NCBI GenBank assembly: GCA_016841245.1
Contig: JAENZN010000005.1
Span: 1 to 64,000 of the forward strand
From: Syntrophomonas sp.
GTDB lineage: Bacteria > Bacillota > Syntrophomonadia > Syntrophomonadales > Syntrophomonadaceae
Length of the DNA stretch: 64,000 nt
Direction of reading: 5' to 3'
Positions 15,563-61,791 of this stretch are shown here, piece by piece. Positions within the stretch are counted from its first letter, which is position 1; every line of letters begins with the position of its first letter. The notes under the pieces are model-generated. The model ran no database searches and was not told the DNA's origin. It saw only the letters and a program-made list of their open reading frames with translations. A program made the position numbers and the translations under genes.

Positions 15563-15567
15563 AAGCA

Positions 15568-16146
15568 GTGAGGAAATCCAGGGTGTATATAGCACTCCTT
15601 CATTACCCGATGTATAACAAGAGAATGGACACCGTAACCACATCCATTACTAATCTGGATTTACATGATATATCCAGAGCTGCACGAACCTACAATGTCG
15701 AAGGATTTTTTGTAGTTCATCCATCTCAGAATCAGCATAATCTTTTGAATGAAATACTGGCTTATTGGCGCCAGGGATATGGTGCTCAATACAATCCGGA
15801 TCGTCAGGAGGCTTTTAGTATATTAAAGACGGCTCTTGATCTGGATAGCGTTATAGCAGATATCGAAAGGGAAACTGGAAATAAGCCGTTAACGGTAGCG
15901 ACCGATGCACGGGTTTACCCTCATAACATTCCCTGCTATAAGATGAAGAAACTTATTTTCGGTGAAGAACAGGTCTTTGTCCTGCTCTTTGGAACCGGCT
16001 GGGGAATAAGCCAGGAGTTCATAGAAAAATGTGATTATATATTGGAACCGGTGCAGGCAGGCAGTGATTACAATCATTTATCAGTGAGAAGTGCAGTTTC
16101 AATTATATTGGACCGATTATTAGGTGAATTTTGGTTCCAGAATTAG
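15568..16146 (+). CDS. SPOUT-type RNA methyltransferase (RNA_Me_trans family)
   Basis: The 192-residue protein opens VYIALLHYPMYNKRMDTVTT and contains LLFGTGWGISQEF, the pattern of the uncharacterised RNA_Me_trans SPOUT family that often sits beside trmD. The glycine-rich GTGWG loop is the likely SAM site. The target is unknown. It starts with GTG (GGAG ten bases upstream), five bases after the trmD stop. Confidence 0.85.
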   Translation: MRKSRVYIALLHYPMYNKRMDTVTTSITNLDLHDISRAARTYNVEGFFVVHPSQNQHNLLNEILAYWRQGYGAQYNPDRQEAFSILKTALDLDSVIADIERETGNKPLTVATDARVYPHNIPCYKMKKLIFGEEQVFVLLFGTGWGISQEFIEKCDYILEPVQAGSDYNHLSVRSAVSIILDRLLGEFWFQN

Positions 16147-47119: not shown

Positions 47120-47134
47120 TATTTCAACAAAATT

Positions 47135-47290
47135 ATATTATCTCCGAGCTTTTTTGCCTACGGTGCAGCTAGGGTGAAAAAACCGATGGGTATACCTGGA
47201 AACAGGCCTGCCTCCCATTTGGAAAGGAGAAAGACGCGATCATCAGTGTGCCTGGGATGGGAGTTTTTTGCCTGCCCGGGTTTTTTGTTA
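47135..47290 (+). promoter_or_regulatory. Moco/Tuco-type riboswitch 1 with terminator platform
   Basis: P1 TCTCC/GGAGA (47141-47145/47226-47230) encloses GAGC, a CCTG-GAAA-CAGG tetraloop hairpin, GCCTCCC and GGAAA. CTCCCAT (47212-47218) in the aptamer can instead pair with ATGGGAG (47257-47263), followed by TTTTTT, giving an alternative terminator. A second stem, CCTGGG/CCCGGG, with TTTTTT follows. Known Moco RNAs, such as the E. coli moaA leader, share GCCTCCC...GGAAAGG. It precedes a FecCD-type importer operon. Confidence 0.8.
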
Positions 47291-47317
47291 ATTGACTAAT
47301 ATCAAGGAGGGAATTTG

Positions 47318-48076
47318 GTGACAGGGAAAATTTTTAGAAGCAGGAACTGGCCTATTATTGTTGCGCTAATGCTGGTAGTATTTCTGGCTGCTCCACTTGT
47401 GGCAGCTGACGGAGACGGAAGCGGAGGAGGAGACGATCCTCTGGCTTTGGAGTCTTCGAGTATCCCGGATGGAACTGCCGGGGTTGACATTTCCACTGAT
47501 CAGATTACTTTAACCTTCAGTAAAAATGTTGTTAATATGACCGTAAAGGAGAATAATGCCGCCTGTTTCACGATTACTGCCGATGGTGCTGCAGTACCAT
47601 TTACAGTAGAAATGGCAGATGATCAGCTATATCGGGAGCTGAGGCGTGATATTGTGCTGCGCTTTGGCGCTGAGCTGAAGCCAGCTGCTACGTATACGGT
47701 AACGGTATCTTCTGACTTGATGTCTAAAAGCGGAGTATATTTAGGCAAGGAAGTTACGGTGAAGTTTACAACTGCCGGTAATATTATGACGGCTGCAGAT
47801 GATAAGCCTGCTGTCGATAGCGGTGGAAAAGCTGCTGGTGAAGAAGACCATAGTCAGATTACTCCCGATTTGGAGCAGGAGGCAGAAGTTATTACCGACC
47901 AAGAAGCATCAGATACTGAAGAAAGCGTAATTAGTACTGAAAGAGAAACAGCTGGCGAAACGAGTGAAGATGAAAATGCTTCAGAACCTGCTGGGGAAAA
48001 TAATATTCCGATAATACTGGGGATTGCTGCTGTGATTATTGTGGCGGCTTATGTGCTATTTAGAAAAAAAGCTTAA
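47318..48076 (+). CDS. Secreted, membrane-anchored Ig-like domain protein
   Basis: The product of about 252 residues starts at GTG 47318 (AAGGAGGG six bases upstream; TTG 47315 is in frame). It has a signal peptide ending near AAPLVAADG and a Gly/Asp-rich DGDGSGGGDD segment. One bacterial Ig-like (Big_5-type) domain follows (about 45-150; STDQITLTFSKNV, AATYTVTVSSDLMSKSG). Then come an acidic linker and a C-terminal helix with RKKA, so it sits on the outer face of the membrane. It is the first gene after the riboswitch. A role as metal-capture or transporter-accessory protein is inference from position. Confidence 0.78.
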   Translation: MTGKIFRSRNWPIIVALMLVVFLAAPLVAADGDGSGGGDDPLALESSSIPDGTAGVDISTDQITLTFSKNVVNMTVKENNAACFTITADGAAVPFTVEMADDQLYRELRRDIVLRFGAELKPAATYTVTVSSDLMSKSGVYLGKEVTVKFTTAGNIMTAADDKPAVDSGGKAAGEEDHSQITPDLEQEAEVITDQEASDTEESVISTERETAGETSEDENASEPAGENNIPIILGIAAVIIVAAYVLFRKKA

Positions 48077-48133
48077 AAATTGATAATCTAGAAGCTTTAT
48101 TATTGCAAGTACTATAAATGACCGGAGGACTTA

Positions 48134-49141
48134 GTGAATAAAAAAATAATCATCTTAATTGTATTTGCTGCTCCCCTGTTGGTAATCTTTTTATCTCTTT
48201 TCATAGGAAGATATCCGGTTTCCATAGCCAGGGTTTTGCAGGTACTCTGGTCAGGTATCACAGCTTCCACCTGGGGACAGCCTGATGTTTATAACACCTT
48301 AATCTGGCAGATAAGAATGCCGCGTGCGATTCTGGGTGCTATGGTGGGGGGATGCCTGGCCATAAGCGGTGCTGCTTTTCAGGGGTTATTCAGAAATCCT
48401 CTGGTGAGTTCAGGCATATTAGGAGTAAGTGCAGGTGCTGGTTTTGGTGCTGCTCTGTCTATTCTGATTTTTCATTCGGTTACAGGAGCTACCTATGTTT
48501 TTGCGTTTGCATTCGGACTGCTGGCGGTATTTCTTAGTTATCTGATAAGTAAGATATACAATTCTTCGCCTACCATCATGTTGGTTCTGGGCGGAGTAAT
48601 TGTAGGATCCATATTTTCCGCTTTAATTTCCTTTGCTAAATATGCGGCTGATCCTTATGAAGAATTACCGGCCATAGTATTCTGGTTAATGGGAAGTCTG
48701 GCTTCTTCCAGCTATAAAGACATTCTGGTGGCAGGAATTCCCATGTTTATAGGTATAAGCGGTTTGGTGCTTATACGTTGGAGAATAAACGTGCTTTCCA
48801 TGGGGGATCGGGAAGCCCATGCTCTGGGTATCAATTTGGTGGTGGACAAAGGGCTGGTTATCGTATGCTCCACGCTGGCTGCTGCAGGAGCTGTTTGTGT
48901 CAGCGGGGTGATCGGTTGGGTGGGCCTGGTTATTCCTCATATTGCTCGAATGATAGTAGGTAATGACAACCGGGTTTTGATTCCCGCCAGCCTATCCCTG
49001 GGAGCATGTTTCCTGGTTCTGGTAGATGATGTGGGACGGATTATTACCGGAGCTGAGATGCCGCTGGGGATACTAACTTCACTGGTAGGAGCACCTTTCT
49101 TTATATGGCTGCTGAAAAAAACTAAAGCAGGTGGATGGTGA
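48134..49141 (+). CDS. FecCD-type ABC permease (MolB-like)
   Basis: The 335-residue protein of the FecCD/BtuC family has about ten helices, QIRMPRAILGAMVGGCLAISG, FRNPLVSSGILGVSAGAGFG and the ATPase-contact region GWVGLVIPHIARMIVG. This family takes up siderophores, B12 and haem, and in MolBCA molybdate/tungstate. The Moco-type leader upstream favours the last. GGAGGACTTA precedes the GTG start. Confidence 0.92.
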   Translation: MNKKIIILIVFAAPLLVIFLSLFIGRYPVSIARVLQVLWSGITASTWGQPDVYNTLIWQIRMPRAILGAMVGGCLAISGAAFQGLFRNPLVSSGILGVSAGAGFGAALSILIFHSVTGATYVFAFAFGLLAVFLSYLISKIYNSSPTIMLVLGGVIVGSIFSALISFAKYAADPYEELPAIVFWLMGSLASSSYKDILVAGIPMFIGISGLVLIRWRINVLSMGDREAHALGINLVVDKGLVIVCSTLAAAGAVCVSGVIGWVGLVIPHIARMIVGNDNRVLIPASLSLGACFLVLVDDVGRIITGAEMPLGILTSLVGAPFFIWLLKKTKAGGW

Positions 49142-49145
49142 TAGT

Positions 49146-49952
49146 ATGGCATTGGTAGAAGTGATAGACGGAGTATTTGCCTATAATAAAAACCGGATTT
49201 TCACCAACATCAACCTGTCAGTTGAGAAAGGCGAGATATTATGTTTGCTGGGACCCAATGGGTGTGGCAAGACTACTTTGATTGACTGCATCCTGGGCAT
49301 GCATATGCTGAATGATGGAAAAATCTTAATCAATGGCCTGGATGCTAAAAAATTTCATCCCGGTGAGCTGGCCAAATATGTAGCTTATGTACCACAGAAC
49401 CATGAGCGTACTTTCCCTTACAAGGTTTTAGATATTGTACAGATGGGACGTGCGGCATATACTGGCAGGTTTTCTTCACCCAGTCAGCAGGACCAGGATA
49501 TAGCTGCAGAAGCCCTGGCTATGGTGGGACTAATAAAGCTGAAAGACCGCCCTTATACACAGCTGAGCGGTGGTGAGGGTCAATTGGTGATGCTGGCCAG
49601 GGCCCTGGCCCAGCAGACTCCAGTGATTATAATGGATGAACCTACTGCTCATCTTGATTTTAAACATGAGATGCTGGTTCTGGAAATGATTCTGGATCTG
49701 GTTAGAAACCGGGAATTAACGGTTATAATGGCTACGCATTTTCCTAATCATGCTTTCTGGTTTGAGAATAATGCTTTGAAAACCCGGGTGGCTCTAATGC
49801 ATGAAGAGCATTTTGTGGAGGTCGGGCCGCCTATGGATGTGATTTGTGAAAAAAACATGAGATTACTTTATAACATTGACACCAGGCTGCTTTCGTTCCG
49901 GGTAAATGAGTTAGGTGAAATGCATCAGATTGTACCGGTTAAAACTTTATGA
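49146..49952 (+). CDS. ABC transporter ATPase of the FecCD-type importer (MolC-like)
   Basis: The 268-residue ATPase from ATG 49146 has Walker A GPNGCGKTT, signature LSGGEGQ and Walker B VIIMDEPTAHLD. The signature has Glu-Gly where LSGGQ is usual. PQNHERTFPYKVLDIVQMGR is typical of FecE-type ATPases. It starts four bases after the permease stop. Confidence 0.93.
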   Translation: MALVEVIDGVFAYNKNRIFTNINLSVEKGEILCLLGPNGCGKTTLIDCILGMHMLNDGKILINGLDAKKFHPGELAKYVAYVPQNHERTFPYKVLDIVQMGRAAYTGRFSSPSQQDQDIAAEALAMVGLIKLKDRPYTQLSGGEGQLVMLARALAQQTPVIIMDEPTAHLDFKHEMLVLEMILDLVRNRELTVIMATHFPNHAFWFENNALKTRVALMHEEHFVEVGPPMDVICEKNMRLLYNIDTRLLSFRVNELGEMHQIVPVKTL

Positions 49953-49974
49953 TCTAAACAGGAAGAGGGAGGAT

Positions 49975-51105
49975 ATGATGTTAAGATTTATAGCAAAAAC
50001 AAGATTAATAAGCATAATAACGGTTATTATTCTGATCAGTGTTTTGTTTATCACTGGATGTGCACCATCAGGTGGTCAGGATCAAGCCGAAGAAGAAAAA
50101 ACGGGACAGCAGGTTAGGGTGGTCAGAGATTATCTGGATAGGGAGGTTGAGGTGCCCCTACAAGTAAAAAGGATAGCTACCCTATACGCATATACAGGAC
50201 ACGCAGCGGCTATGCTGGGACGGGGACAGGATATAGTGGCTATAAACAATGGATTGAGCCGGGATGTGCTTTTAAATATGGTATGCCCCGGGATAGGCGA
50301 TAACCCCATACCTTTTGTCCACGACTCAATCAATATCGAAGAACTGCTAAAAGCGGAGCCGGATCTGGTATTTATTAAAGGTGAAGTGGGTGGCAATGCT
50401 GCCGAAGTGGAAAAACTAAACAAGTTTAATATACCCTATGTAGTTATTGATTTTAACAATATTGAAGAGCAGATGAGATCAATAGAAATAATGGGTGAGG
50501 CATTAGGGTGTCAGGAACAAGCCCGCAAGTATAACCAGTATTACCAGGAATGTATCGATCGGGTGCAAACAGTGGTTGGAAATATACCTGAAGAGCAGCG
50601 GGTAAGGTTGTTCCACTCGGTGAATGAAGCCAGCCGAACAGATGCGGCCGGCACCCTTCCGGCAGATTGGCTGGAGAAGGTAGGGGTAATAAATGTATCG
50701 GTAGATCAAGACTTGAAATTAGTAGAAGGGAAATATTTCGCCAGCCTGGAACAGATACTGCTCTGGGATCCAGAGGTAATAATTGCCAACGAAGCCGGGG
50801 TTGCAGATTATATACTCACCAACCCGCAGTGGGCACCCCTTAAAGCAGTCCAAAACCAGAAGGTTTACCAGATGCCTATCGGTATTTCCCGCTGGGGCCA
50901 TCCAGGGGGGCTGGAAACTCCACTGGGAATCCTATGGACGGCTAAAACAGTTTACCCGGAATATTTTTCGGATCTGGATATAGAGGCAGAAGCGAAAGCA
51001 TTTTACCAGGAATTTTTTAATTACGAGGTTTCAGATGAATTAATGGAGCAGATTCTAGCAGGTGCTGATATGCGACAGGCTAAAAATGAGAGACCTCAAG
51101 AGTAA
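49975..51105 (+). CDS. Periplasmic-binding-type lipoprotein (MolA-like)
   Basis: The product has 376 residues from ATG 49975 (GAGGGAGGA upstream) with signal peptide and lipobox FITGC. The class III binding-protein fold (REVEVPLQVKRIATLY, EELLKAEPDLVFIKGE) carries PIGISRWGHPGGLETPLGIL near the C terminus. It would deliver substrate to the FecCD-type permease. The riboswitch context suggests molybdate or tungstate. Siderophore or corrinoid binding is the alternative. Confidence 0.9.
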   Translation: MMLRFIAKTRLISIITVIILISVLFITGCAPSGGQDQAEEEKTGQQVRVVRDYLDREVEVPLQVKRIATLYAYTGHAAAMLGRGQDIVAINNGLSRDVLLNMVCPGIGDNPIPFVHDSINIEELLKAEPDLVFIKGEVGGNAAEVEKLNKFNIPYVVIDFNNIEEQMRSIEIMGEALGCQEQARKYNQYYQECIDRVQTVVGNIPEEQRVRLFHSVNEASRTDAAGTLPADWLEKVGVINVSVDQDLKLVEGKYFASLEQILLWDPEVIIANEAGVADYILTNPQWAPLKAVQNQKVYQMPIGISRWGHPGGLETPLGILWTAKTVYPEYFSDLDIEAEAKAFYQEFFNYEVSDELMEQILAGADMRQAKNERPQE

Positions 51106-51115
51106 TCGATTTATT

Positions 51116-52105
51116 TTAATTGGCCTGTTCCAGTTGATCCAGGTACTCCCTGGAACCTATCAAAACCAGGGTATCTCCTTCATGGATAATGGTATTGCCG
51201 CGAACATTAATCATAAAATCAGAATCTCGAATGATGGCAATAATGGTCATCTTATCCTGGTTGCCCAGCAGGGTTACAATGTCTTTGCCGATCAGGGATG
51301 ATCCCGGAATCACGTAAAATTCTTCAATGTTTATATGTTCATTTTTTGAGGTGTAGAGTGTATCAATAAGACCAATCGTGAGGGGTTTAACCATAGCCAT
51401 GGCCATTTGTGAACCGGCTATCAGGGTAGGGGCAATTACCTTGTCAGCACCTGCCCGGCGCAGTTTTTTCATGGTTTCAGGGTTTTCTGCTCTGGATACG
51501 ATTTTTATTTCAGGGTTTACGGAACGGGCGGTCAGGGTGATAAATAAATTATAGGCATCATCCGGTAAGGCGCATATAATTCCTGCTGCCTGCTCTATAC
51601 CGAGCTCGGAAAGAACCTCATCCTGATTAGGATCACCCACTATGGCTGGATGGCCTTTTTCCCGGATTTTTTCTACTACTTCAGGATCAAGATCCACCAG
51701 TATATAAGGTGCTTTTTCGTCTTTCAAAACATTGGCCACGTTACTGCCTACCCTGCCTGCTCCACAGATGATAATGTGGTCTTTAAGGTTTTTAATATAC
51801 TTATCCTTTTTATTTTTATCCATAATTGTACTAATCTGCCTTTCCAATAATGTATTAGTTATTGCTCCCAGAGCATACGCAACGACTCCCACTCCAATCA
51901 GGAGTACGATAAGCAGAAATAATCTTCCGGCTGGAGTGATAGGGATCAGGTCGCCATAACCGGTAGTGGTAAGACTTACCACGATAACCCATAAGGCATC
52001 AAATACCGGCCAGCTTTCCAGATAGGCCAGACCCAAGGTTCCCGCTACAGTAACTCCTATAAGTGATAATATGGCACTTAATAATCTTAGTTTGGCTTCT
52101 GACAA
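51116..52105 (-). CDS. Potassium channel with RCK (TrkA-N/TrkA-C) domain
   Basis: The protein has two membrane helices around the selectivity filter TTTGYGD, then an RCK Rossmann domain (HIIICGAGRVGSNVANVL) and a TrkA-C domain at the end (GNTIIHEGDTLVLIGS). This is the MthK-type ligand-gated K+ channel layout. TTG 52105 is preferred, five bases after GGGGAG; GTG 52123 has no ribosome binding site. It converges with the importer operon and has no obvious link to metal uptake. Confidence 0.92.
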   Translation of the reverse strand: MSEAKLRLLSAILSLIGVTVAGTLGLAYLESWPVFDALWVIVVSLTTTGYGDLIPITPAGRLFLLIVLLIGVGVVAYALGAITNTLLERQISTIMDKNKKDKYIKNLKDHIIICGAGRVGSNVANVLKDEKAPYILVDLDPEVVEKIREKGHPAIVGDPNQDEVLSELGIEQAAGIICALPDDAYNLFITLTARSVNPEIKIVSRAENPETMKKLRRAGADKVIAPTLIAGSQMAMAMVKPLTIGLIDTLYTSKNEHINIEEFYVIPGSSLIGKDIVTLLGNQDKMTIIAIIRDSDFMINVRGNTIIHEGDTLVLIGSREYLDQLEQAN

Positions 52106-52123
52106 ATTAACTCCCCAATTCAC

Positions 52124-52439
52124 AAGAGTCCCTGATGAAGGTTATCTAGTAGTAATCCAGTCAACTTTTACATTAGCAATGCTGCAGTATAATAGTTTCC
52201 CGGGGGTGTGTTTCTTTACATCACTCAGTTCTGTTTATTGTGAATATATAAATTGTACAAGAAAAAAGGAAGATTGCGCAAGGGATGATATGTTGCAGAC
52301 CATATTATTCAATTGTTCTTAAACAGCAGTACGTATATTCAGGGTGTTAAGTCGTTTATCGAAAAAAGATGTGTCTTTCTGAAGGAATACTATAATATTT
52401 CACGAATAATAGCAATAAGTTTAAAAAATAAATAATGAG
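52124..52439. other. Intergenic region before riboswitch 2
   Basis: This AT-rich stretch of about 300 bases holds the upstream regions of the leftward channel gene and the rightward wtp operon. No gene is visible. I could not assign promoters with confidence. Confidence 0.4.
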
Positions 52440-52670
52440 ATGTTCTTCGAGCTGAAAGGTCTAACGGCACCAAGCCTATGATTGACAGCCGATGGGCTGG
52501 AATAGAAATATACTGGCCTCCCGTGTTTTGGAAAGAAGAGCTATTGGTTGATAATATAGTTATTTAGATACGGTGTATATTATATTTTATTAACAACTAT
52601 ATTTATCAAAGATCAATATTTAAATTAAAGTTCGGCCAGCACGGGATAATCCACATGCTGGCTATTTATG
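52440..52670 (+). promoter_or_regulatory. Moco/Tuco-type riboswitch 2 with expression platform
   Basis: P1 GTTCTTC/GAAGAGC (52442-52448/52535-52541, one G·U) encloses GAGC, an ATA-GAAA-TAT hairpin, GCCTCCCGTG and TTTTGGAAA. The same order of elements occurs in riboswitch 1, with different but still complementary P1 bases. Downstream GCCAGCA/TGCTGGC (52635-52641/52656-52662) forms a hairpin followed by TATTTATG, and its CACGGG could pair with CCCGTG of the aptamer. It precedes wtpABC. Confidence 0.8.
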
Positions 52671-52778
52671 TTGGGGGTGTTGTCACTTTTTAGGGTCATT
52701 AATTTGAAGGAGGGATATATTTAGAATTTGAACTATAGGAAATAAATCCTGGAATCTGAGAGAAAAGGAGAATGCAAT

Positions 52779-53792
52779 ATGTTAAAGAGAAAAACCTGGA
52801 TTGTATGTATGTTGTTATTGTTTGTTGTCGCTTGTGTAGTTGGAGGATGTGGAGGAGATGCCACTAATTCGGAACCAGCCCCAGAACAGGCAGCCGAATT
52901 AGAAGGCACGGTAGTAATATACCATGCTGGAAGTCTGGCGATACCTTTTGAAGCCCTGGAAGCTGAATTTGAGAATCTCCACCCCAAAGTAGATATTCAG
53001 AGAACTTCAGGCGGAAGTACCAAACTCAGCCGCCAGATTGTAGACCTGGGAGACAAAGTAGACATATATGCTTCAGCAGATTATACAATTATTGATAATG
53101 CACTTATACCGGATTATGCCAGCTGGGATGCATATTTTGCCAACAACTCCATGGTGATCATGTATACGGACCAGAGCAAGTATGCTGATGAAATAAGCAA
53201 AAACAACTGGTATGAAATTTTATTAAGAGATGGTGTTAATTACGGACACAGCAACCCCAATGATGATCCCTGCGGATACCGGAGTGTACTGTGCTGGCAG
53301 CTGGCAGAATCGAAATATGAACAAGAAGGTTTATATCAGCAGTTATGTGATAACTGCCCGGAAGCCAATATCCGCCCCAAATCTGTTGAGCTCATATCTC
53401 TATTGGAAACCGGAGCACTGGATTATGCCTTTGAATATGAGAGCGTGGCCCGGCAGCATGCTGCAGCTAACGATATTTTTAAATGGGTTGAACTTCCACA
53501 AAAAGTTAACCTGAGCAATCTCGAAAATGAAGAATTCTATGCCCAGGCTACTCTGGAAACTGCAGGTTCTGCTCCAGGAGAAACCGTGACCAGAGTGGGT
53601 CAGCCAATAGTATATGGAATTACCATGCCTGCTTCAGGTGAAAATAATGAACTTGCACTCGAATTTTTAAAATTCTTCTTTGATAAAGAACAGGGGCTAA
53701 AGATGCTGGAAGATAATGGACAACCAGTGCTTGATCCAATCGTAATAAATGGAGAAGGCTTCCCAGAAGAATTAAATGCTTTAATTCAATAA
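52779..53792 (+). CDS. wtpA: Tungstate/molybdate-binding protein
   Basis: The 337-residue lipoprotein (signal ending VVGGC) has oxyanion-binding motifs typical of WtpA: IYHAGSLAIPFEALE, ASADYTIIDNALIP, GHSNPNDDPCGYRS and ALDYAFEYESVARQH. WtpA binds tungstate very tightly and molybdate less so. AAAAGGAGA precedes the ATG. A hairpin separates it from the permease gene. Confidence 0.93.
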   Translation: MLKRKTWIVCMLLLFVVACVVGGCGGDATNSEPAPEQAAELEGTVVIYHAGSLAIPFEALEAEFENLHPKVDIQRTSGGSTKLSRQIVDLGDKVDIYASADYTIIDNALIPDYASWDAYFANNSMVIMYTDQSKYADEISKNNWYEILLRDGVNYGHSNPNDDPCGYRSVLCWQLAESKYEQEGLYQQLCDNCPEANIRPKSVELISLLETGALDYAFEYESVARQHAAANDIFKWVELPQKVNLSNLENEEFYAQATLETAGSAPGETVTRVGQPIVYGITMPASGENNELALEFLKFFFDKEQGLKMLEDNGQPVLDPIVINGEGFPEELNALIQ

Positions 53793-53809
53793 TAGTTAGA
53801 ATTAAAACA

Positions 53810-53834
53810 GGAGGTCAGGTGAAGCCTGACCTCC
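53810..53834 (+). promoter_or_regulatory. Hairpin between binding protein and permease genes (wtp)
   Basis: A perfect ten-base stem, GGAGGTCAGG/CCTGACCTCC, has loop TGAAG and no T run. Such hairpins commonly protect the binding-protein mRNA and lower downstream expression. Confidence 0.75.
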
Positions 53835-53855
53835 ACTTTACTTCTGGAGGTAATA

Positions 53856-54653
53856 ATGAATAGAAAAAGAACTGAATCACTATTTATAGTATCTTTTATT
53901 ACCGGCACCATTATTATGCTGTTCTGTATATACCCGCTCATCAGCACCCTGTTTTGGACCGAACCGGGAGTTATTTTTGACACCTTTAAAGACAAACAAG
54001 TCTTACAGTCCATTTATCTAAGTATGGGGGCAGCAACCATAACCACCATCGTGGCCTTTATTCTCGGGGTACCTTTTGCGTATGTTCTGGCTAGAAAAGA
54101 ATTTAGATTCAAGAGTCTGGTGGAGAGTATAGTAGACATACCTATTGTAATACCACATCCCGTAGCCGGGATATGTCTTTTAACTGTTATCAGCCCGCGC
54201 AGCTGGACCGGGCAGTTGATGGAAAAAGCAGGTATCGAGGTGTTGGGAACCGTTGCGGCTATTGTACTGGCCATGACCTTTGTCAGCATGCCTTTCTTGA
54301 TTAATGCTGCCAAAGAGGCATTTAAATGGGTACCGCCTCGTATGGAAAATATATCCCGCACTCTGGGAGCCAGCCATACCCAGACATTTTTTCTGATAAC
54401 CTTTTCACTGGCCTGGAGGGATATACTGAGCGGTATGATACTGACCTGGGCCAGAGCTATCAGTGAATTCGGGGCAGTAATAATTCTGGCTTACCATCCC
54501 ATGATAGCACCAACCGTAATTTATGAACGCTTTACCGCCTATGGGATGATGTATGCTGTTCCGGTAGCAGTGATCTTAATAATATTATGTTTAATTATGT
54601 TTATTATTCTAAGGCTCTTGGCGGCAAGCAGCAGGGAGGGGGAAATCTTATGA
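53856..54653 (+). CDS. wtpB: Tungstate/molybdate ABC permease
   Basis: The 265-residue permease has about six helices and the ATPase-contact EAA-like region SRTLGASHTQTFFLITFSLAWRD, then ISEFGAVIILAYHPM. It is of the ModB/WtpB type. TGGAGG precedes the ATG. Its stop overlaps the wtpC start (ATGA). Confidence 0.93.
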   Translation: MNRKRTESLFIVSFITGTIIMLFCIYPLISTLFWTEPGVIFDTFKDKQVLQSIYLSMGAATITTIVAFILGVPFAYVLARKEFRFKSLVESIVDIPIVIPHPVAGICLLTVISPRSWTGQLMEKAGIEVLGTVAAIVLAMTFVSMPFLINAAKEAFKWVPPRMENISRTLGASHTQTFFLITFSLAWRDILSGMILTWARAISEFGAVIILAYHPMIAPTVIYERFTAYGMMYAVPVAVILIILCLIMFIILRLLAASSREGEIL

Positions 54654-55675
54654 TAGAAGTGAAAGACTTATCCCTCCAACTGGGTGAATTTAAGATAAAG
54701 GATTTTAGCCTTACTATAGACATGGGTGAGTTTTTTGTCCTTCTGGGACCGACCGGCAGTGGTAAAACGGTACTGTTGGAATCTATTGCTGGATTAAAGG
54801 CTATTCAGGCTGGGAACATTTATATTAATAAAAAGGAGGTTACCGGAAAAAAGCCGGAGGAGCGCAATATTTCAATTTGCTACCAGGATCTGGCATTATT
54901 TCCCCATATGAGGGTTAAAGACAATATCAAATATGGTCTCCGTTTTCGCCGGGACACTAATAAACTGAAATATGAGAAGAATTTTGAGACTCTGATAGAA
55001 TTATTAAGAATAAACCATATACTGGACAGATATCCGATATTTTTAAGTGGGGGTGAAAAGCAGCGGGTGGCTTTAGCCCGGGCATTGATTGTAGATCCAG
55101 ATATTCTTCTGCTGGATGAACCATTAACTGCTCTGGATTCAGGGATAAAAGCTACCATAGAAGCAGAGCTGAAAAACCTGCACGAAACTCTAAAAATTAC
55201 CATACTTATGGTCACCCATGATTTTAAAGAAGCATACTACCTGGCGGACCGGGTGGGAATAATCAAAGATGGCAGTATTATGCAGATGGGTCCTATTGAG
55301 AAGGTGTTTGAGCAACCGGATTCAATTTTTACAGCTAATTTTGTGGGCATGAAAAACCTGATAAAGATTTATGAATTAAAAGACAAACCAGTATTTCAAG
55401 TGCTCTTAAAGCATGTTGGTGAAACCGGAGCAGAATTTATCGGTATCAGACCGGAAAATATCGTAATAAGTAATAAAATCATAGACGACTCTTGCAGTTT
55501 TTTAGGAATAATATCCCATATAAGAAATAATGGTATATATCGTGAGATAGATATCATTAGCCATGGAGTTGAGTTCAAGGCTTACTTGACTGCCAATAGT
55601 TATAATGAACTCCAGCTCTCACAAGGGAAAGAAGTATTTTTCGGAATTGATGCTTCAAGGATCGCTGTTATTTAA
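54650..55675 (+). CDS. wtpC: Tungstate/molybdate ABC ATPase
   Basis: The product has 341 residues from ATG 54650 (GGGAGGGGG upstream, ATGA overlap). Walker A GPTGSGKT, signature LSGGEKQR and Walker B ILLLDEPLTALD are followed by a C-terminal regulatory domain (about 235-341) with GIRPENIVISN, related to TOBE/MOP oxyanion-sensing domains. An in-frame ATG 54587 lies inside wtpB and is rejected. Confidence 0.93.
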   Translation: MIEVKDLSLQLGEFKIKDFSLTIDMGEFFVLLGPTGSGKTVLLESIAGLKAIQAGNIYINKKEVTGKKPEERNISICYQDLALFPHMRVKDNIKYGLRFRRDTNKLKYEKNFETLIELLRINHILDRYPIFLSGGEKQRVALARALIVDPDILLLDEPLTALDSGIKATIEAELKNLHETLKITILMVTHDFKEAYYLADRVGIIKDGSIMQMGPIEKVFEQPDSIFTANFVGMKNLIKIYELKDKPVFQVLLKHVGETGAEFIGIRPENIVISNKIIDDSCSFLGIISHIRNNGIYREIDIISHGVEFKAYLTANSYNELQLSQGKEVFFGIDASRIAVI

Positions 55676-55688
55676 TAAATATAGTAAG

Positions 55689-55717
55689 GCCGCTTTGCTG
55701 AAAGCAAAGCGGCTTTT
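55689..55717 (+). terminator. Terminator between converging wtp and mod operons
   Basis: GCCGCTTTGCT/AGCAAAGCGGC is an 11-bp perfect stem with loop GAA followed by TTTT on the + strand. It lies between the two convergent operons and could slow transcripts from both sides. Confidence 0.9.
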
Positions 55718-55720
55718 ATA

Positions 55721-56440
55721 TCAACTTCCCAGGAAACACCAGCGTTCCAGCCCCATGAGTTTGGTTGCTGCAGCACCTGTAGTGCCAAAGAATAAAGCGG
55801 GTTTGTCATAGCAGTAATCGGTAATAGTGGCATTAACTACCGTACTGCCGGTGGCGACGATGAGATCACACCAATCCAAAACTTCGCGAGTCGCTTCGGG
55901 ACCTTCGATCAGCACCCCGGATTTGATCTTGCCAATATTATCGGCATCCAGGTCTACTGCGCGCACTTCAAAAACCTGCTTAAGTTTTTCCAGCATAGCC
56001 GGCTGAAACCCTATCAGTGCTACTTTGGGATTCCCGAATTTATTTTTGATATGCTGTACCAATTCCAGCGAACAGTGCTCAGGATCTTCATTATGGCAGT
56101 GAATGGTCTTATCAATCTGACCCAGGTATCTCAGTACTGCATTCATAGTGGAAATTAAGACCGCTCGATCGAAGTTGCTCTCGGGTTTTTTAGCCAGTAC
56201 CTCTTTTAAGGTTCCCTGGAAATTTCCAGCCATATCGGTAAACGCCTGGCCCTTTTGATCTTTAAATACTGCCTGCATTAGTTTTTCTTTGCCTTTCACA
56301 ATAGGATAATCCTGGCGCTCCGGGCTGCCGATAGCTTCCTTGACGGATAAGGTTCGGCCGGTAATAAGTATTTCTTCATCCAGAAGTCCGTTTTCCTCTA
56401 CAATATGGCGAAATTTATCTATCAGCTGATCATAAAACAA
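55721..56440 (-). CDS. DUF364 putative heavy-metal-chelation protein
   Basis: The 239-residue protein matches DUF4213/DUF364 proteins: RTLSVKEAIGSPERQDYPI at the N terminus, KVALIGFQPAMLEKL and DLIVATGSTVVNATI in a Rossmann-like half. The family is annotated as possible heavy-metal chelators from structural similarity, without a proven reaction. It is the last gene of the mod operon (30 bases after modC), which points to molybdenum/tungsten handling. It starts at TTG behind AGGAGG. Confidence 0.85.
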   Translation of the reverse strand: MFYDQLIDKFRHIVEENGLLDEEILITGRTLSVKEAIGSPERQDYPIVKGKEKLMQAVFKDQKGQAFTDMAGNFQGTLKEVLAKKPESNFDRAVLISTMNAVLRYLGQIDKTIHCHNEDPEHCSLELVQHIKNKFGNPKVALIGFQPAMLEKLKQVFEVRAVDLDADNIGKIKSGVLIEGPEATREVLDWCDLIVATGSTVVNATITDYCYDKPALFFGTTGAAATKLMGLERWCFLGS

Positions 56441-56469
56441 TTAATCAACACCTCCTGTAATTACTTTGA

Positions 56470-57504
56470 TTATAACACGTGCACGGCAGCACTCTTAAAT
56501 GCAACCCAAACCGGCATATCTTTTTGTAATCCCATTTCTTCCACTGCCTGCATGGTTACCAGGGCGGTAAGAGCAATGTCAGCATCGACCGTTATCCGGT
56601 ATAAAGGTCCCTGGTGAATCATGTTAATAATTTTACCAGGTATATTATTTTGCGCACTGGAAAACAACTTTTCCCTGGAAATGATAATATCTTCCGGGCG
56701 TATGGTAAGGGTTGAGGGACCAGTTTTATCCATAATAGTCTCGATATTTATGTTGTTTGATACTTCAATGGTTTTTCCGCGGCCATGGCCCTCGATAATA
56801 TTTTCTGCCCCTACAAACTCAGCTACAAAATGTGAATTGGGATGGCGAAAGACTTCCATAGGCTTTCCCACCTGCATAATCTCGCCATTGTGCAGGACTC
56901 CCACCTGGCTGCCCAGGGCCATGGCCTCTGAGAAATCATGGGTTATATGCAAAGTGGTGGTTTTTAGATTATCATGAATCCTTCGCAACTCTTCCTGGAA
57001 TATCTGCTTGGTGCGGGGATCCAGAGCACTGAGAGGTTCGTCTAACAGCAGTATACGGGGAGATGTTACCAGAGCCCTGGCAATAGCAGTTCTCTGCTGT
57101 TCGCCTCCGCTCAGGGTGGATGGAAACCTGTCCAGCAGATATTCAATGTTAAGGAAATCGACAATTTCTCTGAAACGTTTATTACCTTCATTTACATCAA
57201 TACCCCGGCATTTGATACCAAAAAAAATATTTTCTTTCACAGTTAGATGAGGAAATAATGCATAATCCTGATACACAAAACCAATACTGCGCTGTTCCGG
57301 ATATAAATCACTAATTTTTGCGTCCCCAAACCAGACAGATCCCTTATCAGGTTGATACATGCCGGCGATCAATTCCAGCAGTACAGTTTTCCCGGTACCG
57401 GTAGGTCCCAGTACAATAAAATATTCGTCTTTTTCTATATTAAGGTTTATATCAGTAAGTTCAAATGAACCGAGTTTTTTACAAAGATTTTCAATTCGCA
57501 GCAA
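56470..57504 (-). CDS. modC: Molybdate/tungstate ABC ATPase
   Basis: The 344-residue ATPase has Walker A GPTGTGKT, signature LSGGEQQR and Walker B ILLLDEPLSALD. A C-terminal MOP/TOBE-type domain holds TIRPEDIIIS and GPLYRITVDADIALTALV. It is a clear paralogue of wtpC. GAGGGGAGGG precedes the ATG. Confidence 0.92.
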   Translation of the reverse strand: MLRIENLCKKLGSFELTDINLNIEKDEYFIVLGPTGTGKTVLLELIAGMYQPDKGSVWFGDAKISDLYPEQRSIGFVYQDYALFPHLTVKENIFFGIKCRGIDVNEGNKRFREIVDFLNIEYLLDRFPSTLSGGEQQRTAIARALVTSPRILLLDEPLSALDPRTKQIFQEELRRIHDNLKTTTLHITHDFSEAMALGSQVGVLHNGEIMQVGKPMEVFRHPNSHFVAEFVGAENIIEGHGRGKTIEVSNNINIETIMDKTGPSTLTIRPEDIIISREKLFSSAQNNIPGKIINMIHQGPLYRITVDADIALTALVTMQAVEEMGLQKDMPVWVAFKSAAVHVL

Positions 57505-57519
57505 AATAAACCCTCCCCT

Positions 57520-58344
57520 CTAATACAGGCTGCTTCGTGACAGTTCATACTGTTTGCCGCCCATGATTTCGAAGAGAAACAGGGAAAGCACCGAGATAAT
57601 TATCAATAAGCTGGCTGCCGCCAGAGCCAGCTTAAGATCACCGCAGGACATGTTTAAAAATAATGATACGGGTAAAGTTTCAGTTTTTAAGCGAGTGGCC
57701 CCGGCCAGCATCAAAGCCGCACCAAATTCTCCCAGGGCACGGGCCCAGGTGATAACAATACCTGCCATAAGACCGCTGCGGGCCAGAGGAAGGGTTATTT
57801 TGAAAAAGGCCTGCAGGCGGCTGCAGCCCAGAGTTCTGGCCACAAATTCCATCCGGGGGTCGATATCGTTCATGGTCGAGCCCAGTACCTTGATCATATA
57901 AGGAACATTAACAAAAAACTGGGCCAGTATGATGCCCAGAGGAGTAAAAATAAATTGGATTCCTCTGGCTGCCAGAGCGTGACCAAATTCGGTAGTACCA
58001 AACAGCAGTAATAAGGCTACCCCGGATACTATAGGCGGCAGAGCTATGGGGATATCCAGAACCGTACTTACGAAACGCTTCCCGAAAAATTCAAGCCGGG
58101 ACATACCGTAGGACACCGGTACAGCTATAGCGATGCAGAGTAAGGTTGAGATGACGGAGGTAAGAAAGCTCAGTTTAATAGCAAACTGAATTTCCCGGGA
58201 AAGGATACTGGGTATCATATTAGGCAATCCCTTCAGAAGCACCATAGAAATAGCTAAAATGATGAAGCCGGTAAGAAATGCAATACTGATGGATATGACG
58301 GCAGTAAATAAGATATTCTGTCCTCTTACTTCAGATTTTTCCAT
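57520..58344 (-). CDS. modB: Molybdate/tungstate ABC permease
   Basis: The 274-residue permease has about six helices. The ATPase-contact loop ARTLGCSRLQAFFKITLPLAR is followed by ALGEFGAALMLAGATRLKTETLP, which is typical of ModB. AAAGGAGC precedes the ATG. It is 15 bases from modC and separated from modA by an intercistronic hairpin. Confidence 0.93.
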   Translation of the reverse strand: MEKSEVRGQNILFTAVISISIAFLTGFIILAISMVLLKGLPNMIPSILSREIQFAIKLSFLTSVISTLLCIAIAVPVSYGMSRLEFFGKRFVSTVLDIPIALPPIVSGVALLLLFGTTEFGHALAARGIQFIFTPLGIILAQFFVNVPYMIKVLGSTMNDIDPRMEFVARTLGCSRLQAFFKITLPLARSGLMAGIVITWARALGEFGAALMLAGATRLKTETLPVSLFLNMSCGDLKLALAAASLLIIISVLSLFLFEIMGGKQYELSRSSLY

Positions 58345-58383
58345 TAATAAAAGCTCCTTTGTTGCAATATAAGAGATTGAAGA

Positions 58384-58426
58384 AGTAAAGCAGCCAACAC
58401 CAAAAGCGGGGTTAAACTGCTTTACT
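58384..58426 (-). promoter_or_regulatory. Hairpin between modA and modB
   Basis: AGTAAAGCAG (58384-58393) is complementary to CTGCTTTACT (58417-58426). As in the wtp operon, a stem-loop without T run lies between the binding-protein and permease genes. Confidence 0.65.
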
Positions 58427-58455
58427 AATTACCTCCATACTATAGGCTGAACTGC

Positions 58456-59265
58456 TTATTCTATAACCTTGAAACCATATTTTTCAAAGATGGCTTTCCC
58501 TTCTGGTCCGGCTACGAAATCAGCAAATTGCTGAGCCAATTCAAGTTTTTCTGATGTTTTTAAAACGCAGACAGGAAGAGTTTTAACCTGGTTTAATTCA
58601 TCAGGGATTTGGATCATCTCCACATCTTCGACGCCTTGAACATTATCTTCCCATATAATTGTGCAGTCGGCCTGCTTCATAGACATGTATACCAGGAGCT
58701 CATTAACGGTAGCAGTAGTAGCAACAGTATTGGCAGATACTGCCTCATAGATACCATTTTCGGTCAGCATTTTCTTGGCGGTTTTGCCGATAGCAGCTGC
58801 TTCAGGATCACCCAGTACTATTTTCAGCCCGGGAGCCGCCATATCTTCCAGACTTTGGATATTAGCTGGATTTCCTTTAGGAACAGCAATAACCGGGATA
58901 TGGTAAGCGAAATTAACCATACTCACAATTAGATCTTTTTCCTGGGCAGCCTGGCCGTAGTATACGTCACCCGGGGTCCAGACATCACCTTGTCCGGTTA
59001 ACTCTATCTGGCTTAGATTCTGGGCTGAACCAGCGTAGGAGTATTCTATCCTAATATTGTACTTTTCTTCGAAAACCTGACCGATCTCATCCATAGGTTT
59101 ACGAAGTCCAGCTCCGCTGTATACCAGCAGACTGTCTGTCGGCTCGGTAACGGCTGGTTCTGACGAAGCTTCCTGAGAAGAGGTATCTGTACTGCTGCAT
59201 CCTATCACAGTACCCAGAGTAAAGATAAGTAATAAAATCAGTAATATTATTTTGTTTCTAAACAT
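58456..59265 (-). CDS. modA: Molybdate/tungstate-binding protein
   Basis: The 269-residue lipoprotein (lipobox TVIGC) has ModA features: LLVYSGAGLRKPMDEIGQVFE at the N terminus, SAQNLSQIELTGQGDVWTPGD and NEAA-like linker EAAAIGKTAKKML. It should capture molybdate or tungstate for modBC. The gene is first in its operon and follows a terminator and riboswitch 3. Confidence 0.92.
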   Translation of the reverse strand: MFRNKIILLILLLIFTLGTVIGCSSTDTSSQEASSEPAVTEPTDSLLVYSGAGLRKPMDEIGQVFEEKYNIRIEYSYAGSAQNLSQIELTGQGDVWTPGDVYYGQAAQEKDLIVSMVNFAYHIPVIAVPKGNPANIQSLEDMAAPGLKIVLGDPEAAAIGKTAKKMLTENGIYEAVSANTVATTATVNELLVYMSMKQADCTIIWEDNVQGVEDVEMIQIPDELNQVKTLPVCVLKTSEKLELAQQFADFVAGPEGKAIFEKYGFKVIE

Positions 59266-59346
59266 TCTCCCAATCCTTTCTTTTTTTTAAAATCGATCAT
59301 TTTTATAATACTATCTGAGTTCACTCCCTTCTCCAGAAAATAAAAG

Positions 59347-59376
59347 AGTCTTTTCTCAATTGGAAAAGACTGCGCT
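59347..59376 (-). terminator. Leader terminator upstream of modA
   Basis: On the - strand, AGTCTTTT/AAAAGACT with loop CCAATTGAG is followed by CTTTTATTTT. It lies between riboswitch 3 and modA, where a transcription-attenuation platform is expected. Confidence 0.8.
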
Positions 59377-59444
59377 TTAAACGTGTTGACAAAATATCTT
59401 CAAACATAAGCACTGCAGTTATTAGTGTTATGAGAAAATGAAAG

Positions 59445-59560
59445 TCAAGCTGCGCATAACTCCTTTCCAAACACGGGAGGCATGATCGTTTCCGGTCATA
59501 CCCTTATCGACCCGGGTCCATAGCTATTAGCATTAGGATTGCGGGCTCGGAATTACAGCT
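59445..59560 (-). promoter_or_regulatory. Moco/Tuco-type riboswitch 3
   Basis: Read on the - strand, P1 TAATTCC/GGAGTTA (59549-59555/59457-59463, one G·U) encloses GAGC, an ATGACCG-GAAA-CGATCAT hairpin, GCCTCCCGTG and TTTGGAAA. Order and conserved bases equal those of riboswitches 1 and 2 while P1 covaries. The leader terminator at 59347-59376 and modA follow. Confidence 0.82.
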
Positions 59561-59799
59561 TATTAATATTTAGTTTGGTTAGCTATAATTTTTTGACACA
59601 TACCTCTTTATGATTATGTAAAAAAGTTGTAATTAATGGGTATATGTCTATTATACATGAATATTCTGTTAGGATAAAATGAAAAACAATCCCAGGTGTC
59701 TGATAAGTGAAAAAGTTAGAGATAATATCCGGAATAAATGAATCTGTGTTCAGCTGTTACGTTAAAATAGGTTTAAAAGAATTAAAGATGGAGGGTAAT
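59561..59799. other. Promoter region between mod operon and aldehyde dehydrogenase
   Basis: The AT-rich region should hold divergent promoters. TTGACA at 59594-59599 is a possible -35 for the rightward aldehyde dehydrogenase gene but lacks a good -10. No gene is visible. The frame open from 59707 has no ribosome binding site before 59800. Confidence 0.35.
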
Positions 59800-61185
59800 A
59801 TGCTTAATAATCAAAAGTACGGTGGTTTATTAGAACGGCAGCGAGAATATTTCAGGCAGGGGGAGACCAGGACTCTGGATTTTAGGATTGCTCAGTTAAT
59901 GACCTTAAAAAGGCTAATTAAGGCAAGTGAGGATGATCTGTTGGAAGCATTGAGATTAGACCTGGGCAAATGCAGTGTAGAAGGGTATTTAACCGAGATT
60001 AATATATTGATTCACGAAATAGATTATATGATTAAAAATATGAAGCGTTTTATGAGGCCCACTAGAGTAAAAACTTCTCTTATGTTCCTGGGAGCCAGGA
60101 GCTTTATATACAGCGAACCACGGGGAGTAGTACTTATAATAGCTCCCTGGAATTATCCGGTGCTGCTACTGTTGGCACCACTGGTAGGAGCCATGGCAGC
60201 GGGGAATTGTGCTGTTTTAAAACCTTCCGAATTTGCTCCGAACGTTTCCCGACTGATGGGAAAAATTATCAGCGACAATTTTTCTGATGAATATGTAACA
60301 TTAATCGAAGGTGATTCAGAGGCAGCTCAGAGCTTGCTGCAGGAAAAGTTTGATTATATATTTTTTACTGGCGGGTTAAGGGTGGGGAAAATGATCATGC
60401 AGAGAGCAGCCCAACACCTCACACCGGTAACGTTGGAGCTGGGAGGCAAGAGCCCCTGCATAGTTGACCGGGATATCAATCTTGATATTACAGCTCGGAG
60501 AATAGTATGGGGAAAGTTCATCAATGCCGGGCAGACTTGTATTGCTCCTGATTATCTGCTGGTACACAAAGACATCCGCAATGAACTGCTTAAAAAAATT
60601 ACAGAAATTATTAGAGACTTCTATAGCAACTGCTCCATTGAATCTAAGCATTATTCACGGATTGTTAATGACCGGCATTTTATGAGACTTACAGGATTGC
60701 TGGAGGAAGGAAACATTATTATTGGGGGCGAGAGCAAGCGAGAAGAAAGATACATAGCTCCTACGGTTATTGTTGATGTCCCTTTGACTGGACAGCTGAT
60801 GCAGGAGGAAATATTCGGACCGATCCTCCCTGTTTTTGAATATGAGACTCTTGAAGAAGCAGTCGATATGGTTAATGAACGGCCTAAACCACTGGCGTTG
60901 TATTTCTTTTCCAACAACCGCGAAAAACAGGACCTGATTTTAGAAACCAGCCAGTCTGGTGGTGTGTGTATAAATGATACTTTAATACATACCAGCAGCA
61001 GCGAACTGCCTTTTGGTGGAGTAGGGGAAAGTGGGATAGGGAGTTATCATGGGAGAGCATCCTTTGATACATTTTCTCACCATAAAAGTGTTATGAGAAA
61101 TACTTTTTGTTTTGACATGAAAATGAAATATCCTCCATATAAATTATCGCTGGAAAAACTTAAAAAACTGATGAAGTTAATGTAA
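59800..61185 (+). CDS. Class 3 aldehyde dehydrogenase
   Basis: The product has 461 residues from ATG 59800 (ATGGAGGG upstream). It is an NAD(P)-dependent aldehyde dehydrogenase of the ALDH3/fatty-aldehyde branch: APWNYPVLLLLAPL, Glu213 in TLELGGKSP, Cys247 in NAGQTCIAPDY, EEIFGPILPV and PFGGVGESGIGSYHG. No C-terminal membrane helix is present. The substrate is probably a medium- or long-chain or aromatic aldehyde. It is not tungsten-dependent, so its place next to the tungstate island need not be functional. Confidence 0.93.
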   Translation: MLNNQKYGGLLERQREYFRQGETRTLDFRIAQLMTLKRLIKASEDDLLEALRLDLGKCSVEGYLTEINILIHEIDYMIKNMKRFMRPTRVKTSLMFLGARSFIYSEPRGVVLIIAPWNYPVLLLLAPLVGAMAAGNCAVLKPSEFAPNVSRLMGKIISDNFSDEYVTLIEGDSEAAQSLLQEKFDYIFFTGGLRVGKMIMQRAAQHLTPVTLELGGKSPCIVDRDINLDITARRIVWGKFINAGQTCIAPDYLLVHKDIRNELLKKITEIIRDFYSNCSIESKHYSRIVNDRHFMRLTGLLEEGNIIIGGESKREERYIAPTVIVDVPLTGQLMQEEIFGPILPVFEYETLEEAVDMVNERPKPLALYFFSNNREKQDLILETSQSGGVCINDTLIHTSSSELPFGGVGESGIGSYHGRASFDTFSHHKSVMRNTFCFDMKMKYPPYKLSLEKLKKLMKLM

Positions 61186-61207: not shown

Positions 61208-61283
61208 ATAAAAAAAGCCCGCTTTATTCAAAGCGGGAAGAAAAAGATTGGGATTGTATGCAAAAGCTCCGAAGAGCCTTTTA
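61208..61283 (-). terminator. Terminator hairpins oriented to the - strand
   Basis: CCCGCTTT/AAAGCGGG (61218-61237) is followed by T7 only on the - strand. A second GCTC-TTCG-GAGC-type hairpin (61266-61277) has TTTT on both sides. The orientation implies a leftward transcript from the region at 61.3-61.5 kb. Confidence 0.6.
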
Positions 61284-61303
61284 CCAAAAACAAAAAATCG
61301 CGC

Positions 61304-61498
61304 CTATGAAATAGATAGACACGACAGTCTTACGATTATACCACCATAACAGCAACAGCAATAATGCGCACCATAAATACACATGCCAGCCATTACAGGC
61401 ATAACCAAATAAGGTCTTGTCTCCTTTCCACAATAAGGGGAGGCACAGGCGTTTCCTCCTGCACCCAGGTTAATAAACCATAGCAGTGCCTTAGGCAT
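61304..61498 (-). CDS. Possible Cys-rich small protein
   Basis: The 64-codon frame ends with GMCIYGAHYCCCCYGGIIV and has nine cysteines in total. It has no good ribosome binding site at its ATG; an AAAGGAG lies inside the frame. Support comes from flanking signals: TTGAAT-17-TAGACT on the - strand (61553-61558 and 61530-61535) and the leftward terminators at 61208-61283. No family recognised. It may equally be a decayed gene or a noncoding transcript. Confidence 0.3.
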   Translation of the reverse strand: MPKALLWFINLGAGGNACASPYCGKETRPYLVMPVMAGMCIYGAHYCCCCYGGIIVRLSCLSIS

Positions 61499-61791
61499 AT
61501 TAACTCGGAGGCCTATAAGATTACAGTAAGTCTAGCACAATAGAATCAATTATTCAATATTAACCTATGAGAAAAATAACATAATTTATGATGTATATGG
61601 GAAAATAATGAAAATTAATCTGTCTGCATCAGTTTTTTCTTAATAGTTTCAGTATTTCATTGTATGTTATTGATCTGACATTAATTAGTATTAAGGAGAA
61701 GCAGGCTGTTTCTATTATAAGTCGGCAGGGAAAATGCAGCTTGATGCAGAATTATTTTAATGCTATTCATAATATACAAGGGAGGATGACC

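Follow-up and report, generated by a model that had tools for sequence, protein, structure and literature searches.

Molybdenum cofactor (Moco) riboswitches, family RF01055 of Rfam, are known to be numerous in Syntrophomonas wolfei. The part of Regulski et al. 2008 (PMC2408646) that we draw on counts at least 15 such RNAs there, with tandem arrays, and proposes that the RNAs lacking P3 sense the tungsten cofactor (Tuco), on correlation rather than a binding experiment. In Listeria, the noncoding RNAs (ncRNAs) AspocR and Rli55 belong to B12 riboswitches; a bound cofactor leads to early termination, and in its absence a longer ncRNA keeps cofactor-dependent functions off (PMC8079631). The DNA treated here is a 64,000-nucleotide (nt) stretch from Syntrophomonas sp., positions 1 to 64,000 of contig JAENZN010000005.1 in assembly GCA_016841245.1, called the window below. 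It carries four P3-less Moco/Tuco aptamers, three in the leaders of molybdenum or tungsten (Mo/W) importer operons and a fourth apart from them. The main find is this fourth riboswitch: there is strong sequence evidence that a conserved RNA linked to it is antisense to the mRNA of formate dehydrogenase (FDH).

The window shares with the Moco/Tuco riboswitches, as that part of PMC2408646 presents them, high RF01055 scores, the P3-less type, transporter operons downstream, and the many copies and tandems of S. wolfei. The fourth copy differs in having no gene of its own but instead an RNA made of a seed and terminators, antisense to FDH, and such an RNA is not described in the same part of that paper. 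The logic proposed here is the same as that of AspocR and Rli55, including a terminator between the aptamer and the ncRNA body; however, AspocR is antisense to the neighboring pocR and Rli55 sequesters the EutV protein (PMC8079631), whereas the proposed RNA would pair in trans with the messenger RNA (mRNA) of the cofactor-using enzyme, and the cofactor is based on Mo or W. Base-pairing in trans by a riboswitch transcript is shared with the S-adenosylmethionine riboswitches SreA and SreB (Loh et al. 2009, as given in PMC8079631). In that system SreA, the product of termination in the ligand-bound state, pairs in a 5′ untranslated region (UTR); the present seed is located past the riboswitch terminator, and its main site is coding. 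Antisense-acting riboswitches (PMC9943018), a class in which the Moco family is enriched, also have an aptamer opposite a convergent gene. Here, the predicted RNA ends before the convergent gene and the complementary genes are distant FDHs. RyhB-type small RNAs (sRNAs), which are under the control of the protein repressor Fur, spare metal: when it runs short, they lower the production of enzymes that depend on it. The metal-sparing logic is alike, and the control proposed here is a riboswitch in the same transcript, not a protein repressor. Searches of open-access papers turned up no description of such an sRNA.

The aptamers were found with cmscan against Rfam 15, where RF01055 has model positions 1-135 and a gathering score of 36. 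All four matches are full-length and score 62.6-72.1 bits, far above that threshold, and the P3 columns are deleted in all four alignments. They are positioned at 47130..47245 (+; 62.6 bits, E = 1.1e-12) in the leader of a Mol/FecCD-type importer operon, at 52433..52554 (+; 64.1 bits, E = 4.3e-13) in the leader of wtpABC, at 59444..59564 (−; 72.1 bits, E = 1.9e-15) in the leader of modABC, and at 61409..61522 (−; 68.9 bits, E = 1.6e-14) upstream of the sRNA. Thus three of the four have Mo/W importer genes downstream, and at the fourth a terminator comes before any gene. The four aptamers and the gene order are kept in a Syntrophomonas relative at ~88% DNA identity. Terminator-like hairpins stand between aptamer and first gene at about 47250-47281 in the Mol/FecCD-type leader and at about 52635-52662 ahead of wtpA; the modABC leader has a terminator at 59371-59347 whose CTTTTCC is complementary to GGAAAG of the aptamer. 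With hairpins in these places, feedback shut-off of import is the ordinary reading, and by family membership and terminators the three importer leaders would be ordinary OFF-switches that stop import when cofactor is plentiful. A preliminary description of the window had placed Moco-type leaders at 47135, 52440, and 59445, and RF01055 matches all three within a few bases, with the motif order P1-GAGC-GAAA hairpin-GCCTCCC-TGGAAA-P1′ that it had described. The covariance model, which it had named as the means of refuting it, scores all three above 36, and the P3 comparison it had proposed finds P3 absent from all three, as from the fourth copy. Its observation that each riboswitch precedes a different class of Mo/W importer, in a syntroph, holds up under NCBIfam and Pfam searches. 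A difference in metal preference among the three riboswitches is not supported, because all the aptamers of the window are of one P3-less, Tuco-type class. The description had overlooked the fourth aptamer.

Downstream of the fourth aptamer, the same strand holds only terminators, and the next gene, an NAD-type aldehyde dehydrogenase (ALDH) at 59707..61185 (+; PF00171) that separates the sRNA unit from the modABC leader, is convergent. Following the transcript on the minus strand, there is T1 (61297..61325), an intrinsic-terminator-like hairpin and putative ligand-controlled terminator whose stem is kept in three genus members. Next comes T2 (61262..61282), a small hairpin with a UUCG loop in this genome, the loop varying between species and the stem being kept. 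Then comes the 23-nt seed CATACAATCCCAATCTTTTTCTT (61238..61260), predicted to be unpaired and antisense to FDH alpha mRNA, and finally T3 (61209..61237; terminator call at 61237-61218), a strong intrinsic terminator with a U-run where the sRNA is predicted to end, before the ALDH coding sequence. The stretch from a promoter-like sequence through T3 is more conserved than the surrounding noncoding DNA, including bases predicted to be unpaired, and the seed and terminators with the promoter-like region are kept in two relatives, G003 and G001. A hairpin followed by U-residues stands between aptamer and seed at nearly all loci where the element occurs, being weak in G034. An RNAalifold consensus of the sRNA gave no pairs, from slices that were unequal and with terminator sequences that differ. 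A small protein encoded after the fourth aptamer was considered and rejected: a 32-amino-acid frame and longer frames are present, nonsynonymous changes exceed synonymous ones between two species, and the longer frame is broken by an insertion or deletion.

The 205 nt after the fourth aptamer were used as a query in 61 genomes and matched in 26. In the own genome, this unbiased search returns three matches away from the locus, and all three are antisense to FDH mRNAs. The site on contig C41 is in the coding sequence of an FDH-N alpha gene whose frame stops at a TGA, codon 209; because FDH-like sequence runs on past this in-frame TGA, the enzyme is likely a selenocysteine enzyme. The site on C34 is in an FDH-N alpha coding sequence with no in-frame TGA (TIGR01553, 1023.7 bits against a cutoff of 814). 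The match on C17 is less perfect and falls in the 3′ UTR, 44-67 nt after the stop of an FDH alpha gene of TIGR01591. Neither the C41 nor the C34 gene has an RF01055 match of its own in the Rfam search of this genome. The coding target, KW(E/V)EKDWDWM, spans codons 133-142 and in C41 stops 198 nt short of the UGA, and the complementarity of the seed to the FDH-N alpha mRNAs is about 19 contiguous bases. Predicted duplex energies for the three sites are −30.0, −30.4, and −25.0 kcal/mol. The background has a mean of −7.0 and a standard deviation of 3.0 over 21156 windows of own-genome sequence, which come from both strands of 424 kb that was in part selected for Moco loci, and the best of 500 shuffled seeds reach −22.0, −22.0, and −18.9 kcal/mol at the same three sites. 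Two further pairings were set aside, one of 8 nt (GATTGGGA) with the ribosome-binding site of modA and one with the start of wtpA at −21.7 kcal/mol; the wtpA match is not kept in G003.

The exact 17-mer core of the seed, CAATCCCAATCTTTTTC, was also sought in 63 genomes of the class, with the pattern read backwards as control. The core has 55 matches in 35 of the 63 genomes and the control has none. All 55 are accounted for: 26 are antisense in FDH alpha coding sequence, 1 is antisense in an FDH 3′ UTR, and 28 are seed-plus-terminator elements. The orientation is consistent throughout, sense in the terminator-bearing elements and antisense in FDH mRNA. For 23 of the 28 elements there is a same-strand Moco aptamer no more than about 400 nt upstream, confirmed by Rfam in 20 cases and by motif alone in 3. 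Seventeen of the 55 matches were fetched afterwards and form a held-out set, the other 38 having been known when the idea was formed. This set divides into 8 antisense matches at the same FDH site and 9 seed-plus-terminator elements, every one of the 9 with an upstream same-strand Moco aptamer (confirmed by Rfam in 6 and by sequence motif alone in 3). Divergent elements in G020, G005, G013, and G035 have unrelated terminator sequences with the same seed, and are also downstream of aptamers.

The FDH side of the pairing was examined in 36 FDH genes, a set independent of the seed in that most were found by protein search. At the six two-fold codons of the site, one synonymous codon is used in 89% (0.892) of sequences on average, as compared with 64% (0.637) at 50 other two-fold positions, and the site ranks first of 51 same-size windows in synonymous conservation, the next best ones overlapping it. 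The GAT codon matched by the seed is found in 18 of 22 genomes that have the sRNA and in 3 of the 12 that lack it (Fisher p = 0.002, with no correction for relatedness). One matched change of seed and target is present in G020 and is missing from G035 of the same genus.

From the arrangement of parts and the FDH complementarity, we consider it probable that the fourth riboswitch gates an sRNA which, at low cofactor, base-pairs with the FDH message and represses it. With cofactor bound, T1 would form and only a short aptamer RNA would be made; with cofactor absent, polymerase would pass T1, the RNA would end at T3, and the seed would be exposed. The seed would then pair in trans with the mRNAs of those FDHs that have no riboswitch of their own, and repress FDH that lacks its W/Mo cofactor. 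Candidate modes of repression this deep in a coding sequence are decay and a block of translation before the UGA. The seed-FDH pairing is well supported by sequence comparison, while the repression of FDH and its direction we infer. With T1 placed between aptamer and seed, an OFF-switch would confine production of the seed to low cofactor.

Several observations weigh against this proposal. Antiterminator pairing compared with shuffles is weak (mean z −1.7 over 23 leaders) and is z = −0.8 in this window, so that the switch direction rests mainly on terminator placement. The pairing site is inside a coding sequence. Seed and FDH mismatch in G002, G004, G016, and G035, and pairings of seeds with their own FDHs are only slightly better than swapped ones, a suggestive result at a permutation p = 0.066; phylogenetic non-independence inflates the tests. 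Five of the 28 sRNA-like matches have no adjacent aptamer. Copies of this kind in G004, G014, G023, and G025 are at the distal end of a second FDH operon and adjoin an FdhE-like gene, and the leader of that operon has an RF01055 match in G025 and G004. Finally, seed-matching FDH genes are present in genomes where no sRNA was found (G007, G015).

The history of the locus offers a plainer explanation. In Syntrophomonas sp. BL5_bin.17 (G001, locus L080) two aptamers stand in tandem before modA with no ALDH between them, the first being orthologous to the fourth aptamer at 92% identity, whereas in the window genome and G003 the ALDH stands between. Because the orthologue sits in an intact tandem, the fourth-aptamer locus is probably a former tandem, later split, of which the upstream unit survived. 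Tandem Moco RNAs being known (the same part of PMC2408646), one might hold that only ordinary biology is present and that the fourth aptamer is a useless upstream half of a modA tandem divided by insertion of the ALDH. The split history looks right, yet the unit was conserved afterwards, with the aptamer 96.5% identical to that of G003 and T1-T3 nearly identical, the second aptamer has promoter-like sequence of its own, and the seed is kept in many genera and matches FDH; we regard uselessness as improbable. The ALDH also brings up the antisense-acting class, in that the aptamer is on the opposite strand at the 3′ side of that gene, a geometry catalogued for 24 Moco RNAs in the family-enriched class of PMC9943018, and could drive an RNA antisense to it. 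With T3 predicted to stop the RNA short of the ALDH stop codon (61185), the two would not overlap; the unit exists in G001 with no ALDH, and at other places in the genus no aptamer accompanies relatives of the ALDH. Antisense control of the ALDH was accordingly rejected as highly improbable, and the ALDH is not an inferred target of the sRNA.

A motif shared by FDH genes and Moco leaders could instead be read by a protein, as DNA or RNA, with no pairing at all. But it is always sense in the elements and antisense in FDH mRNA, as pairing requires, the FDH sites are deep in coding sequence, and the seed is predicted to be unpaired and stays fixed while the terminator sequence after it varies, leaving a protein-binding site highly improbable. 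The sRNA may also be real but act in the opposite direction, stabilizing FDH mRNA or being made with cofactor bound. The direction given above is a predicted one, and SreA, as described in PMC8079631, is a riboswitch RNA that acts in trans in its ligand-bound state. However, T1 stands between aptamer and seed at nearly all loci, where a bound OFF-switch would cut the seed off, and the hydrogenase genes found downstream in relatives fit read-through at low cofactor; a reversed direction is unlikely on this evidence, with some chance still attached to it.

Those hydrogenases are of the [FeFe] type, encoded downstream of the element in G034, G012, G030, G016, and G025, the calls having been made with family models in two of the five genomes and by sequence similarity in the rest. 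In G025 tandem aptamers come first, followed by the sRNA, an [FeFe]-hydrogenase-like gene, the gene of a subunit whose start resembles a twin-arginine translocation (TAT) signal, and a cytochrome-b-like gene. This 2,936,195-bp genome has the element at 2197335-2197392 and is taken to be that of the cultured S. wolfei, which thus appears to carry it. From this gene order, low cofactor in relatives with an aptamer-plus-sRNA leader before the [FeFe] hydrogenase operon would shift electron disposal from formate to hydrogen. We lean slightly toward a wider reading, in which a riboswitch-gated sRNA found throughout Syntrophomonadaceae responds to scarcity of the W/Mo cofactor by pairing in trans with FDH mRNA, which stops FDH synthesis, and hydrogenase is turned on by that transcript itself or by sibling riboswitches, making an RNA circuit for the choice between formate and hydrogen as electron carrier in syntrophy. 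In the own genome, a P3-less aptamer (G000:C46:4221-4341(−); L024) precedes hypA, hypB, and a NiFeSe hydrogenase, a nickel and not a Mo/W enzyme.

It is a long-standing question whether formate or hydrogen carries electrons from syntrophs to methanogens, and how the choice is made. The sequences point to a concrete switch, in which the read-through product of a cofactor riboswitch is antisense to the mRNA of a W/Mo FDH, and in several relatives and apparently in S. wolfei, this product forms part of an [FeFe] hydrogenase operon leader. It suggests how syntrophic bacteria could avoid producing an enzyme that they are unable to activate. If true, it would bring Mo/W cofactors into the small set of noncoding RNAs under riboswitch control, and provide a case of such an RNA pairing with the mRNA of the cofactor-using enzyme itself.

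The importers of the window were identified by NCBIfam and Pfam profile searches. The FecCD-type operon begins with a secreted Big_5 domain protein (47315..48076, +; PF13205) that has a C-terminal membrane segment and is kept in G003, followed by a FecCD permease, an ABC ATPase, and a Peripla_BP_2 binding protein (48134..51105, +; PF01032, PF01497, NCBIfam) making up a Mol/BtuCDF-like importer. At 52779..55675 (+; NCBIfam) there are wtpA, wtpB, and a wtpC-like gene for a tungstate/molybdate importer. WtpA scores 373.4 bits against PRK04168, above the cutoff of 355, and for WtpB and WtpC the Wtp models are the top-scoring ones for their genes, yet below their own cutoffs. On the minus strand, modA, modB, and modC-like importer genes and then a DUF364 gene occupy 55721..59265 (NCBIfam, Pfam). 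ModA scores 96.5 bits against TIGR01256 (cutoff 62.5), the permease is above the cutoff of TIGR01581, and the ATPase is WtpC-like. The DUF364 gene (PF04016, putative heavy-metal chelation; 55721-56440(−)) ends the operon, and DUF364-like genes also adjoin the sRNA unit in G002 and G004 (L118, L131).

The organization with many riboswitches and three importers is mostly known biology and not very unusual. The own genome (G000, 3.9 Mb in 56 contigs), whose closest named relatives are Syntrophomonas metagenome-assembled genomes, has 17 RF01055 matches, and relatives have similar numbers. Within it, P3-less aptamers precede a FecCD-type system on C4 as well as the three importers of the window, and P3-containing, Moco-type aptamers precede a second modABC (C37) and a second FecCD-type/Mol-type system (C18). 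The second modABC has three tandem P3-containing aptamers (G000:C37:184043-184651; L018), similar units with a terminator-like hairpin after each. In G003, a divergent intergenic region (G003:C21:6509-8237; L123) has long, P3-type aptamers on both strands, three in one direction and two in the opposite one. Another tandem, P3-less then P3-containing, is found at G000:C17:15231-15348 and 15512-15648 (L021 7232-7349, 7513-7649) before an operon with FDH, moeA, and nuoEF-like genes. Aptamer pairs of like order and lengths (118-119 then 137 nt) recur in G001, G002, G003, and G004, and a tandem of this type may be a two-ligand gate, for Tuco plus Moco.

An unexpected target for a metal-cofactor riboswitch is on C16, where three tandem P3-less aptamers (G000:C16:112166-112902; L020 5167-5903) precede a giant fibronectin-III/RCC1-repeat surface protein of >3572 amino acids, with an open reading frame from L020 6286. 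The sRNA seed is predicted to pair near the start of this gene at −23.5 kcal/mol. Two cyclic-di-GMP-I riboswitches are also found near Moco loci of the own genome, at L022 4121-4209(−) and L020 742-830(+).

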